Source: a virus
DNA: 25,855 bases
IMG/VR virus record: IMGVR_UViG_3300018428_000155
Span: 1 to 25,855 of that record
Reading direction: 5' to 3' (one strand)
A model generated the notes under the pieces. The model saw nothing but the letters and a program-made list of their open reading frames with translations, was not told where the DNA came from and searched no databases. Below, piece after piece: positions 8,503 through 23,772 of the stretch. A program made the translations under genes and the position numbers. The first letter of the stretch is position 1; each line of letters opens with the position of its first letter.

Positions 8503-8510
8503 TATAAATA
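8503..8510 (+). promoter_or_regulatory. Late promoter TATAAATA abutting gene 20
   Basis: Perfect late box with exactly five bases (ATATT) between it and the ATG at 8516. The predicted start site coincides with the start codon. The only purine run nearby (GGGGG at 8498-8502) lies upstream of the box and is too far away to serve as a Shine-Dalgarno sequence. Confidence 0.7.
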
Positions 8511-8515
8511 ATATT

Positions 8516-10051
8516 ATGGAAATATTTGGGTTTGAAATAACTCGTAAAAAAGACGAGTTAAGAGACACAGCTGATGTAGGTAAGGTTGCATCATTTGTCC
8601 CACCAGTGGACGATGATGGAACCCCAGTTATCCAAACACAGCCAGGTGGATTTATTACTGGTGGTGCATATGGTGCCTACATCGACATGGAAGGTGGTAT
8701 CAAGAATGAGGCAGAACTCATTCGAAGATATCGTGAAACATCTTTAATTCCTGAGTGTGACTCGGCTATTGAAGATATTGTTAATGAGTGTATCACTTCG
8801 GATAGTGCAGATAGGATTGTAACACTTGACCTCAGGGATACCAAACTCTCTGACAGTATCAAGAATAAGATACAAGACGAGTTTGACCACATCTTATCTT
8901 TAATGAAGTTCAATCAGAACTCTCATGAAATTTTCCGAAAATGGTATATCGATGGTAGAATCTACTTCCATAAGGTTGTGGATGGTCAAAATACTAAAAG
9001 AGGTATTGTTGACCTCAGACCAATTGACCCTCTTAAAATTAAGAAGGTCAGAAATATAGAAAAGGTTAAAGATAAAAAGAACCAAATCGACAGAATTAAA
9101 AAGGTCGAAGAGTATTTTATCTTTAACGATAAAGGTTTTGATAAGACTGCTGGACAAGAAGGTGCAACAGTCAAAATTGCACCTGAGGCAGTAACATTTA
9201 CTACTTCAGGTCTTTTAGACTACACTAAGAATGTAGTCGTAGGTTATCTTCACAAAGCATTGAAGACTGCAAACCAGTTATCAATGATGGAAGATGCACT
9301 TGTTATCTATAGGATATCAAGAGCTCCTGAAAGAAGAATATTCTACATTGATGTAGGTAATTTACCTAAATCAAAAGCAGAACAATATCTTTCAGAGGTT
9401 ATGAACAGGTATAGAAATAAACTTGTTTATAATGCACAGACAGGTGAAATCAAAGATGATAGAAAACACATGTCTATGCTTGAAGACTTCTGGCTCCCTC
9501 GTAGGGAAGGTGGAAGAGGAACAGAGATTTCAACTCTGCCAGGCGGACAAAACCTTTCAGAGATTGAAGATATAGAATACTTCAAGAAGAAACTATATCG
9601 TGCATTGAATGTTCCTATTTCTAGAATGGAAGCCGACAATGGATTTAACATGGGTCGTGCATCTGAAATTTCTAGAGACGAACTTAAATTTAATAAGTTC
9701 ACAAACAGACTTCAGAAGAAGTTTGCAAGGGTCTTCACAGACATCCTTAAAACACAATTAGTGTTAAAAGGAGTAGTCAGTGGAGAAGAGTTTGATAAGT
9801 TTAAAGATTTTTTACTTTATGACTTTGCAACCGACAACCACTTTACAGAGTTGAAGGAAGCAGAAATACAAAGAGAAAGATTCGATACCTTATCACAGGC
9901 ATCTGAGTATGTCGGTAAATACTTCTCACACGAGTATGTAAGAAAGTATATACTAAGACAGACTGAGGAAGAAATTAAACTCATCGATGACCAAATCCAA
10001 CAAGAAAAGGATAGTGGTGGAGACGATGAAGATGAATTTGGGGGATTTTAA
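8516..10051 (+). CDS. 20: gp20 portal protein
   Basis: Portal vertex protein, 511 residues (T4 gp20 is 524). It forms the dodecameric ring that starts head assembly and through which DNA passes. Clear patterns are GGAYGAYIDMEGGIKNEAEL, LIPECDSAIEDIVNECI, a FHKVVDGQNTKRGIVDLRPI segment, MEDALVIYRISRAPERRIFY, GNLPKSKAEQYLSEVMNRYR and TLPGGQNLSEIEDIEYFKKK with RALNVPISRME. The acidic C-terminus (GGDDEDEFGGF) is usual for this family. The gene sits behind a late box with no ribosome binding site. Confidence 0.96.
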   Translation: MEIFGFEITRKKDELRDTADVGKVASFVPPVDDDGTPVIQTQPGGFITGGAYGAYIDMEGGIKNEAELIRRYRETSLIPECDSAIEDIVNECITSDSADRIVTLDLRDTKLSDSIKNKIQDEFDHILSLMKFNQNSHEIFRKWYIDGRIYFHKVVDGQNTKRGIVDLRPIDPLKIKKVRNIEKVKDKKNQIDRIKKVEEYFIFNDKGFDKTAGQEGATVKIAPEAVTFTTSGLLDYTKNVVVGYLHKALKTANQLSMMEDALVIYRISRAPERRIFYIDVGNLPKSKAEQYLSEVMNRYRNKLVYNAQTGEIKDDRKHMSMLEDFWLPRREGGRGTEISTLPGGQNLSEIEDIEYFKKKLYRALNVPISRMEADNGFNMGRASEISRDELKFNKFTNRLQKKFARVFTDILKTQLVLKGVVSGEEFDKFKDFLLYDFATDNHFTELKEAEIQRERFDTLSQASEYVGKYFSHEYVRKYILRQTEEEIKLIDDQIQQEKDSGGDDEDEFGGF

Positions 10052-10054
10052 TAA

Positions 10055-10231
10055 ATGTCAGATACAAGTAGAAAAATTGTTGATGCAATCCACAATGGTG
10101 AATTAAACGATGCAAAAGAACTAGTCTTTCATGGTATGAAAGAAAAAGCAGGTCAAGCAGTTGACATGAAAAGAGTAGAAATGCAAGTCGACTGGATGAC
10201 AGAAACAGAAACAACAACAGACGAAGAGTAA
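10055..10231 (+). CDS. 67: gp67-like prohead core protein
   Basis: A 58-residue frame between the portal and gp68-like genes. It reads MSDTSRKIVDAIHNGELNDA then a KELVFHGMKEKAGQAV helix, and ends in an acidic TETETTTDEE tail. T4 gp67 (80 residues) has the same plan: a short helical domain of the form I-x-x-A-I-x-x-x-x-L-x-x-A-x-x-L followed by a highly acidic tail, and it lies between genes 20 and 68. gp67 is an internal core component cut up by the gp21 protease. The stop overlaps the next ATG (TAATG). The assignment rests on position and pattern. Confidence 0.65.
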   Translation: MSDTSRKIVDAIHNGELNDAKELVFHGMKEKAGQAVDMKRVEMQVDWMTETETTTDEE

Positions 10232-10536
10232 TGAAAAGTTTTAACCAGTTAATAGTAGAATTAAACGAAGTTAAATTCAAAGTTCCTGCAGGTTCAAAAG
10301 AACTTAAAAGAGACACTATTAAAGCTGGTGGTAAGTCTGTTGAGTTGGTATATGTTCAAAACAAAAAAAGAAAAGTAGAAGTATACATTGACGGAACATC
10401 TTTTGGACAAGAATTTAAAGATTTAAAGTCTGCAGAAAAAGAAATGAAAGACATCAGAGGTGTCTTAATGCAGATGTCAGAGGAAGAGTTCACAATGGAC
10501 GAATTTAAGGAGTTTTTCAATGAAATTAATATCTGA
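10231..10536 (+). CDS. 68: gp68-like prohead core protein
   Basis: A 101-residue protein at the place of gene 68 (141 residues in T4), a minor prohead core component that affects head shape. The N-terminus MKSFNQLIVELNE resembles T4 core and internal-protein starts and contains an I-x-E and an L-x-E (residues 8-13) that gp21 could cut. The middle is Lys-rich, with beta strands (GKSVELVYVQNKKRKVEVYI). The acidic end (SEEEFTMDEFKEFFNEINI) overlaps the first 17 bases of gene 21. The identification is mainly positional. Confidence 0.6.
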   Translation: MKSFNQLIVELNEVKFKVPAGSKELKRDTIKAGGKSVELVYVQNKKRKVEVYIDGTSFGQEFKDLKSAEKEMKDIRGVLMQMSEEEFTMDEFKEFFNEINI

Positions 10537-11173
10537 ATATAACGACTATAGTGTATCACCTGTAATCGTAGAACAAAACGAAAAGGGTGAGAAAGAATAC
10601 TTTATTGAAGGTATCTTCATGCAATCACAAATCAAAAACAGAAATGGTCGTGTATATCCAAAGGATGTAATGTTAAAAGAAGTAAACAGATATAGAAAAG
10701 ACTTCATCGATAACAAAAGAGCTTTCGGAGAGTTAGGACATCCTGAAGGCCCAACAATCAATTTAGACAGAGTGTCTCACTTAATCACTTCATTAGAAGA
10801 AGATGGTAACAATTTCGTGGGACGAGCAAAGATTTTATCTACACCAAACGGAATGATAGTAAGAAACTTGATTGACGATGGTGCGAGATTAGGAGTATCT
10901 TCAAGAGGACTAGGTTCACTAGAACAAAAAGGAGATGCACAAGTGGTGAAAGGTGACTTCCAACTTGCAACTGCAGCAGATATCGTTGCAGACCCATCAG
11001 CACCTGAAGCATTCGTAGAAGGAATATACGAAGGTGTTGAATGGATTTATCAAAATGGTATCTTAAAAGCAGTTGATGCAGAAAAAATGCAGACTTCTTT
11101 AAAGACTGCAAAAATGCAACAATTAGAAGAAACTAAACTAAAACTATGGAAAAGGTTCATTGAGAACCTTTAA
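10520..11173 (+). CDS. 21: gp21 prohead maturation protease
   Basis: Serine protease, 217 residues (T4 gp21 is 212), that degrades the core and trims the capsid proteins before packaging. GELGHPEG gives the catalytic H74, GVSSRG the catalytic Ser (S127 or S128), and the ATAADIVADPSAP segment (D154 or D158) the third position, as in herpesvirus-protease-fold phage proteases. The early IKNRNGRVYPKDV is also typical. The ATG lies inside the end of the gp68-like gene in another frame and has AAGGAG (10507-10512) at good spacing, which fixes the start. IVE (residues 16-18) is a possible self-processing site. Confidence 0.93.
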   Translation: MKLISEYNDYSVSPVIVEQNEKGEKEYFIEGIFMQSQIKNRNGRVYPKDVMLKEVNRYRKDFIDNKRAFGELGHPEGPTINLDRVSHLITSLEEDGNNFVGRAKILSTPNGMIVRNLIDDGARLGVSSRGLGSLEQKGDAQVVKGDFQLATAADIVADPSAPEAFVEGIYEGVEWIYQNGILKAVDAEKMQTSLKTAKMQQLEETKLKLWKRFIENL

Positions 11174-22211: not shown

Positions 22212-22219
22212 TATAAATA
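22212..22219 (+). promoter_or_regulatory. Late promoter TATAAATA abutting the gene at 22225
   Basis: Perfect late box starting one base after the gene 46 stop, with exactly five bases (GTATT) before the ATG at 22225. The predicted start site is the A of the ATG, with no ribosome binding site. It makes this gene late while gene 46 upstream is not. Confidence 0.7.
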
Positions 22220-22224
22220 GTATT

Positions 22225-23772
22225 ATGAAAACTTTTTCACAATTCACTAATCCAGTTTTAGAGGATATCAGATTAGACCTACCTAAAGTTTCATTGACTG
22301 AAGGTGGAATGTCTAAAGGTGATTTGTTTAAAAGAAAAAATAAAGTCGGTTTTATAGAGAAGGGAGATAACGAAGAACTCTTAGATGTTGATGGTAATAA
22401 ACTAACCATTAAAGATAAATCACTATGGGGAGAGGTTGTTGCAAAACTAGAAGTTGCAATGTCAGATGCAGATTTAGATAGAGAATGGACATCAAATGTC
22501 AAAAAGAGTCTAGGTGTTGCACTTGGAAATATCGATAAGATTGCAAATGGGTTCTCAACCATGACTGGAAAAGACCCATCAGGTGAAGACTGGGAAGCAG
22601 GTATTGCAGTTGGTCTCATGAAACTAAGTGGTAAAAACTTCTTAGACACACCTGAGTGGGAAAGATTTGGAAAGTATTGGGGAGATTGGGAAGACCAAGC
22701 AATGAAAACTGCACAAGACTTTATTACCAAATTAAAAATATCTGAACTTTCACAAACTGGTGCAGCCAAAGATGCAAAACTTACCAAAGAATGGAAAGGA
22801 ACAAACACTACACCTAAGACAGACTTGATGGATAAATCAGGTAAGAAGAGAGTGTCATTGAAAAAAGATGGTGGTTCTCAGTTGATGTCAGGTAAAAAAG
22901 ACGAAGCAATCTCTACAGTAGAAGCTGCAATGAGAAATTATTCTGCATCTAAAACAGGTCAAAAAAGAATCAATGATGTATTAAACATACTAGAAGAAAA
23001 AATGATTACACTTTCACATAAAGGTTCGGTGACTGAACTAGAAGATATGAAAGGTAAAAAGAACATATCACCTGACTTCCAAAAGAAAATAGAAGAACTG
23101 GATTTAGGTCATGCATATGCAAAAGAAATTAACAAAAAGATAGATGACTTATTTAAAAACGAGAAAGACATGAAGTCTTTATTCTGTTGGGAAGCTGCAA
23201 CAGGACATGGTAAGTTTGGTCAAGATACATGGCCAACTGCAAATGTTATTGTAACTTTCTTAGAAGGTGGTGGAATATCAAATGTCCTAAACCTAAAAGA
23301 CCCAGTCAAAGATGGTTCTAAACTTGCAGCTGGTAACGATTTCTATGTCTCATTTAAATCAAGTGGTAAAAGTTCTCCATATCTTGCATTCAGAAGTAAG
23401 AAAACAAAAATGCAACTCAATAATTCTTTTGAACATTCTACACTTGCAGAAATCATTGTCGAAGAAACAATGAGAGAACCATTATTACTCAATGAAGATT
23501 TAGAACAATTAGATGAATTCCAAATTCTCAATAAAGTTTGGCAAAAAACTAAAGAGTTTGCAAAGTCAGTTGTTGATAAAGCAAAGAAAATTATCAATGC
23601 AATCATAGAGAGAATCAAAGGTGCTTTCAACTGGATTAAAAAACAGGGTAGTAAGATTATGAATGCTATGTTATACTTTTTTGGTATAAGGATAGATAAA
23701 GTTAATCTGAAATCAGGTGGTGGGTATCCACTAGATATAGGATTAAAAGATTCAAGTTTTAGAGCAACATAA
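22225..23772 (+). CDS. Probable internal head (virion) protein with capsid-targeting N-terminus
   Basis: A 515-residue protein of unknown function. The start MKTFSQFTNPVLED is close to the T4 capsid-targeting sequence of internal proteins (MKTYQEF), and LTE then GG (residues 24-28) fits the gp21 cleavage rule L/I-x-E, predicting a 489-residue packaged product. The middle is Lys-rich and soluble, with a WEAATGHGKFGQDTWPTANV block that I associate, from memory only, with structural proteins of marine T4-like phages. The C-terminus holds an amphipathic/hydrophobic helix array (about residues 435-490: VWQKTKEFAKSVVDKAKKII, FNWIKKQGSKIMNAMLYFFG), which could touch membranes. I use the ATG at 22225 rather than 22174, which lies within gene 46. 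The late promoter fits a virion role. Confidence 0.7.
   Translation: MKTFSQFTNPVLEDIRLDLPKVSLTEGGMSKGDLFKRKNKVGFIEKGDNEELLDVDGNKLTIKDKSLWGEVVAKLEVAMSDADLDREWTSNVKKSLGVALGNIDKIANGFSTMTGKDPSGEDWEAGIAVGLMKLSGKNFLDTPEWERFGKYWGDWEDQAMKTAQDFITKLKISELSQTGAAKDAKLTKEWKGTNTTPKTDLMDKSGKKRVSLKKDGGSQLMSGKKDEAISTVEAAMRNYSASKTGQKRINDVLNILEEKMITLSHKGSVTELEDMKGKKNISPDFQKKIEELDLGHAYAKEINKKIDDLFKNEKDMKSLFCWEAATGHGKFGQDTWPTANVIVTFLEGGGISNVLNLKDPVKDGSKLAAGNDFYVSFKSSGKSSPYLAFRSKKTKMQLNNSFEHSTLAEIIVEETMREPLLLNEDLEQLDEFQILNKVWQKTKEFAKSVVDKAKKIINAIIERIKGAFNWIKKQGSKIMNAMLYFFGIRIDKVNLKSGGGYPLDIGLKDSSFRAT

Follow-up and report, generated by a model that had tools for sequence, protein, structure and literature searches.

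The open reading frame (ORF) at positions 22225–23772 of the IMG/VR virus record IMGVR_UViG_3300018428_000155 raises the question of which protein a phage would carry in its head, cut by its own prohead protease, and what that protein would do in a new cell. The window (the whole 25,855-nucleotide stretch analysed) is a 25.9-kb IMG/VR fragment of a T4-like marine phage containing genes for terminase, sheath, tube, portal, gp21-type prohead protease, scaffold, major capsid protein, a UvsW-like helicase and gp46/47-like proteins (several assigned by inspection), and the ORF is flanked by a gp46 homologue on one side and peptide deformylase on the other. We consider it probable that this gene encodes a natural, head-packaged, prohead-protease-processed PD-(D/E)XK endonuclease that enters the newly infected host along with the phage DNA and cleaves double-stranded DNA there. 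The features on which the packaging part of this proposal is based are as follows (a slash marks a predicted cut):

22225–23772, + strand: gene for the putative packaged nuclease precursor of 515 aa (ATG at 22225, stop at 23770–23772, start conserved in relatives)
22212–22219, + strand: late promoter box of T4 type, TATAAATA, ending 5 nt before the ATG
22225–22302, + strand: propeptide, residues 1–26, with the capsid-targeting-like start MKTFSQF (F4, F7); disordered in the model; rule for the capsid-targeting sequence (CTS; residues 4, 7, 8 and 10) from PMC9026906
22294–22308, + strand: predicted prohead-protease site 1, LTE/GG, cut after residue 26
10520–11173, + strand: gp21-type prohead protease of the phage itself (Peptidase_S77, library match)

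Relatives were collected by one IMG/VR scan (16), an alignment scan (287 related stretches, the best 80 being retained) and a scan with the Melnitz protein, which added 29. They are found in HTVC008M (Pelagibacter), Melnitz (OM43) and many marine contigs, and since the relatives L003–L010 (58–63% identity) begin at the same Met, the start and the length of 515 codons given in the first-pass annotation are correct. In T4 IPIII, the first ten residues are enough for packaging, with targeting governed by residues 4 and 7 and processing by residues 8 and 10, and the gp21 cut falls after L/I-x-E (PMC9026906). The start MKTFSQF places Phe at exactly the two targeting positions, in agreement with the earlier proposal that it follows the plan of T4 internal proteins. 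The combination [FYL]4 and [FYHL]7 occurs in 31 of 48 family representatives versus 14 of 155 HTVC008M genes, and short Melnitz-type members carry near-T4 tags (MQSFQNFLTE/A and MQGFKTFLSE/A) with T4 geometry.

The fit of LTE/GG at residues 24–28 to the gp21 rule, with a new N-terminus at G27, had also been noted from the single protein, where one LxE near the N-terminus is weak evidence alone because the protein holds ten [LI]xE motifs. However, the common core is immediately preceded by [LI]xE[AGSTDN] in 37 of 38 anchored members, versus 10% of random windows of the same proteins (binomial p ~1e-35, a nominal value that overstates the case as the relatives are not independent), despite N-terminal extensions that are wholly unlike one another, ranging from short tags and acidic stretches to a short domain of unknown kind and an entire PAP2-type acid phosphatase. 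It is this conservation across relatives that makes the predicted N-terminal cut site a real feature.

The Synechococcus phage S-CREM2, whose virion proteome has been published (PMC10665884), served as a positive control. When the phage was searched for proteins in which [LIVMTNS]x[EA] follows the full tag, the annotated matches were three: gp6 (SAM hydrolase), gp13 and gp154 (cytidylyltransferase). Each of them is in the virion proteome (PMC10665884), and the other two full-tag matches start inside other genes. Judged by eye, the kinase gp14 (MKRFDAFLTE) has the tag too, and it is likewise a virion protein. In this phage, virion proteins were separated cleanly only when the full tag and the site were required together. 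The S-SM1 virion also contains the cytidylyltransferase and that of S-SCSM1 a related NMNAT, and the cyanophage S-RIM50 encodes a tagged cytidylyltransferase (MKKFSAFLTE/A) two genes from a homologue of the window nuclease. Another S-CREM2 virion protein, gp12 (annotated as Cas9 nuclease; L126 7704–10313), shows the tag-like RFASFMAE/A at residues 18–25, and its annotated start may be too early.

The late promoter reported before is indeed present, but it lies just 5 nt ahead of the ATG. The same spacing is found at the gp20 portal gene in the window and at other HTVC008M genes; the window contains six copies of TATAAATA (2.4 expected), and two sites, 22212–22225 and 8503–8516, belong to the class of ATAAATA placed 5 nt before ATG. 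Over the loci, ATAAATA-N5-ATG at the start of an ATG-started ORF was counted 15 times with TATAAATA and 30 times with [CG]ATAAATA, a total of 45 unique late-gene cases, versus 0–1 for control octamers. This spacing is no accident, and the late messages would be nearly leaderless if transcription begins at the usual distance behind the box. Considering the tag, the conserved sites and the control in relatives, from which packaging and cleavage are inferred, packaging of the window protein appears well supported, and so does the earlier description of a gp21-type-processed protein with a T4-like capsid-targeting sequence that exceeds the T4 internal proteins in size.

The likely activity of the packaged protein comes from its central part, in which these features were recognised:

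22303–22536, + strand: helical segment before the core, residues 27–104 (DLFKRxN motif), absent from Melnitz/HTVC008M-type members
22537–23406, + strand: predicted PD-(D/E)XK core with MspI/HinP1I-type fold, residues 105–394 (predicted models, including an independent Melnitz-type model)
22594–22596, + strand: E124, invariant in the alignment, helix before the active-site hairpin
22822–22824, + strand: D200 of the invariant TPKTD, proposed catalytic PD (alignment and model)
22855–22863, + strand: S211-L-K213, proposed (D/E)xK position (SxK variant), strand 209–214 (alignment and model)

An AlphaFold model of the window protein, built with 45 sequences, has a mean pLDDT (predicted local distance difference test) of 84.6, with residues 1–24 mostly disordered and most of 30–395 above 90. 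In the PDB, Foldseek places MspI first (E 1.1e-3, probability 1.00) and offers no other credible match, and VIA-align gives Z scores of 8.9 for MspI (195 residues, 4.4 A) and 8.5 for HinP1I (179 residues, 3.9 A), the next being 4.7. A second model, of a 360-aa Melnitz-type relative (approximately 25% identity, confidence 66), reaches 8.5 with HinP1I and 7.6 with MspI, the next again being 4.7. E124, TPKTD200 and S211-L-K213, located in the first core helix, at the first strand and in the second strand, respectively, are invariant or nearly so; in the model, D200 precedes strand 201–203 and S211-L-K213 falls within strand 209–214, a layout that would correspond to the PD-(D/E)XK hairpin, for which a catalytic role is proposed. 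MspI and HinP1I themselves carry a non-acidic residue at the second acidic position of this motif. Family libraries gave no named match for the core (PHROG matches to unknown-function families had E values of 1e-3 to 1e-2), and a search by sequence found no relative of solved structure. We infer nuclease activity from the fold. The first-pass annotation had offered an anti-defence or membrane-active factor without basis, and structure prediction points to a restriction-endonuclease fold instead; an anti-defence action is possible, without specific support.

The precursor also appears to be cut near its other end:

23488–23496, + strand: predicted prohead-protease site 2, LNE/D, residues 422–424 (conserved LxE in the alignment)
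23509–23517, + strand: predicted prohead-protease site 3, LDE/F, residues 429–431
23518–23769, + strand: basic amphipathic-helix tail, residues 432–515, found only in this nuclease family

Amphipathic helices follow both motifs, the LxE close to residue 424 and the L[DNT]E at 431, and E431 is invariant in 47 aligned sequences. Because of these two further conserved sites, C-terminal processing is expected, with residues 27 to 424/431 (~400 aa) as the predicted product, plus the 84-aa basic tail, and the 489-aa mature form proposed initially is probably wrong. The amphipathic C-terminal helices foreseen in that proposal are borne out by prediction (431–444, 447–473 and 475–485). Its Lys-rich body holds insofar as Lys makes up 13.8% of the residues of the protein, but residues 27–431 are not net basic (63 K+R, 66 D+E), and only the C-terminal 84 aa are (17 K+R versus 6 D+E). 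The tail helices lie past the predicted cuts, and the most distant pair of homologues (Microcystis phage Mel-JY01 and S-RIM50) lacks both them and the N-terminal tag; therefore, tag and tail may both serve packaging, which suggests that the tail is a second packaging element rather than an effector. A membrane-active tail as the main function is possible but unsupported. Matches of the tail to ApoC-I (Pfam, below cut-off) and Cas10c (PADLOC, 1.5e-5) were taken as basic-helix noise, and the tail was looked for as a module in other cargo proteins and not found there.

Taken together, a DNA endonuclease precursor would be made late and recruited to the prohead core through its N-terminal capsid-targeting peptide, perhaps with the help of the C-terminal helices. 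The gp21-type protease of the phage would then free the nuclease by cutting after LTE26 and, towards the C-terminus, at LNE424, LDE431 or both, and the ~400-aa enzyme would be stored in the head, ejected with the DNA and active early on double-stranded DNA in the new host. Ejection and target are proposed by analogy with T4 internal proteins; the likeliest target would be DNA of the host or of a competitor, and the phage would spare its own genome because target sites are missing from it or protected. Several points weigh against this proposal. A metal-dependent nuclease stored beside phage DNA must somehow be kept from cutting it, the window LTE at residues 24–26 is deeper than residue 10 of T4, and the tag-less, tail-less homologues of S-RIM50 and Mel-JY01 indicate that the nuclease can also work unpackaged. 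No sequence match of the core to MspI or HinP1I was found in Pfam, NCBIfam or PDB, for which reason it is called MspI/HinP1I-like and not a member of that group, and the Foldseek E value is modest. Neither virion proteomics for any member of this nuclease family nor a virion proteome of any phage carrying the gene was found, and the S-CREM2 control is small; there, any [LI]xE[AGSN] in the first 30 aa was rejected as a sole packaging predictor (3 of 13 versus 8 of 118, p 0.08, not significant).

The same protein could be understood in other ways. It is very unlikely that it stays unpackaged, as a late or cytoplasmic nuclease that degrades the host genome and contains LxE motifs by chance: such motifs are common, as their number in this protein illustrates, and cyanophages have tag-less homologues, but the site keeps its position despite changing flanks, and the F4/F7 start, the late box and the tag match with S-CREM2 virion proteins also speak for packaging. 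Among the readings that accept packaging, a dead restriction-enzyme fold that only binds DNA, or serves as a decoy or inhibitor of a host restriction enzyme in the manner of a large IPI*, would have a precedent in T4 IPI*, an ejected restriction inhibitor, and would agree with the Ser at the second acidic position of PD-(D/E)XK and with genomes strongly marked by restriction pressure. We regard it as distinctly unlikely, since even among very divergent members E124, D200 and K213 never vary and a dead enzyme would have no need of them; the Ser also has its counterpart in the non-acidic residue of MspI and HinP1I.

The nuclease could also be packaged and processed and yet act on the DNA of the phage itself, inside the head or on entry (end trimming, recombination or repair), rather than attack host DNA, with DUF6267 and a kinase as parts of a repair kit. 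In Melnitz and HTVC008M, the homologue directly precedes DUF6267 (KWDG nucleotidyltransferase-like motif), followed in HTVC008M by a Zeta-toxin/AAA kinase and a 5'-nucleotidase-like protein, several of these being tagged, and the window copy follows gp46/47. Such a role seems unlikely, as the fold is that of sequence-specific restriction enzymes and not of repair nucleases, the gene context shifts between clades, and a 140-kb relative lacks the gene, which is thus not essential. There remains a small but real chance that the protein is, more specifically, a head-carried, injected restriction enzyme, often part of a cut cargo polyprotein (phosphatase–nuclease–helical tail), that cleaves the host chromosome or rival phages at sites purged from its own genome. 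Restriction would then be turned round, with a virus wielding a restriction enzyme against the cell.

This last reading directs attention to the tetramer content of these genomes. Carrier genomes are depleted of many palindromic tetramers; in the window, ACGT occurs 0 times (33 expected), GTAC 0 times (62 expected) and GATC 7 times (107 expected). Almost no GATC is present at 68% of the nuclease loci, yet the same is true of 35% of portal loci taken without selection and of a portal locus in the 140-kb relative that lacks the nuclease, and GTAC differs within the pairs L005/L007 and L006/L010 although their nucleases are closely similar. Because avoidance is found without the gene and differs among such similar carriers, it is not closely tied to the nuclease and is most likely due to host restriction, and deducing the enzyme's own site from genome bias was rejected on the same grounds. 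N6/N4-methyltransferase models, the only type tested, matched in 3 of 12 carrier records, above cut-off in 2. Near-total loss of palindromic tetramers, with GATC foremost, is seen in many marine T4-like phages (0 of ~500 expected in the near-genome-size contigs G003 and G004).

Known systems offer several points of comparison for the favoured packaged endonuclease. With T4 IPI, IPII and IPIII, which bear a CTS, are processed by gp21 and are ejected, the window protein shares the aromatic 4 and 7 tag, the [LI]xE cut, late expression and a gp21 protease of the phage's own; unlike them, it has predicted C-terminal processing and a restriction-enzyme fold, whereas mature T4 forms are far smaller (IPI* is 76 aa) and are not nucleases. 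T4 Alt, a large head-packaged enzyme cut by gp21 at both ends (PMC9026906), is thus a precedent for the predicted double cutting, although it is an ADP-ribosyltransferase and is likened here by packaging and processing, not by sequence. MspI and HinP1I resemble the window protein in the predicted fold over most of the enzyme and in the PD...xxK-type residue pattern, and differ in having no detectable sequence similarity to this virus-borne protein with propeptides, for which no consistent partner methyltransferase (N6/N4 type) was seen. As cited in PMC9026906 and PMC3012670, the Black laboratory used artificial T4 CTS fusions to put EcoRI and staphylococcal nuclease into the head; there too, a nuclease is carried by a CTS, by engineering in their case and apparently naturally in the present one. 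The cyanophage virion cytidylyltransferase/NMNAT (T4-GC190) is tagged, belongs to the same cluster as the S-RIM50 homologue and is of a kind detected in virions; it is a different enzyme, and in the accessible part of the published work its detection comes without discussion of the tag.

These phages may thus hold a natural counterpart to the engineered nuclease-in-head of T4, apparently widespread in the ocean (287 relatives passed one scan). For phages of Pelagibacter, OM43 and cyanobacteria, the tag-plus-site rule is a simple and testable way to predict which of their uncharacterised proteins enter the cell at infection.

The gene is accessory, as the 140-kb relative and S-CREM2 lack it. 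Its position next to recombination genes, given weight previously, is uninformative, since the homologue stands behind the gp41 primase-helicase in Melnitz, HTVC008M and S-RIM50 and elsewhere in other contigs. The cluster behind gp41 (L018 5995–12311; L117 5768–13719; L125 5672–11218) holds several tagged proteins and comprises the nuclease, DUF6267 (ligase-like KWDG motif), a HIGH-type cytidylyltransferase, a Zeta-toxin/AAA kinase and a 5'-nucleotidase-like protein, which looks like a packaged enzyme set. A PAP2-type phosphatase is fused ahead of the nuclease in some relatives (L011, L012, L015, L017, L021, L024, L025, L027, L058, L059, L066 and L072), with the motifs KX6RP, PSGH and SRX5HX3D intact and, in most fusions, an LxE site between the two enzymes, suggesting a cargo polyprotein cut in the prohead. 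The sole match in the genome collection, L250 (59% identity), is a 121-kb contig in a Sphingobacteriales metagenome-assembled genome; it is probably a phage contig in a bacterial bin, and a bacterial origin of the gene was rejected.

One further gene in the window has a start of this kind:

10231–10536, + strand: second tagged protein, MKSFNQLIVE/L, just upstream of the gp21-type protease

Its IxE at residues 8–10 is placed in the style of T4 internal proteins, and its product is a probable prohead-core or packaged small protein.
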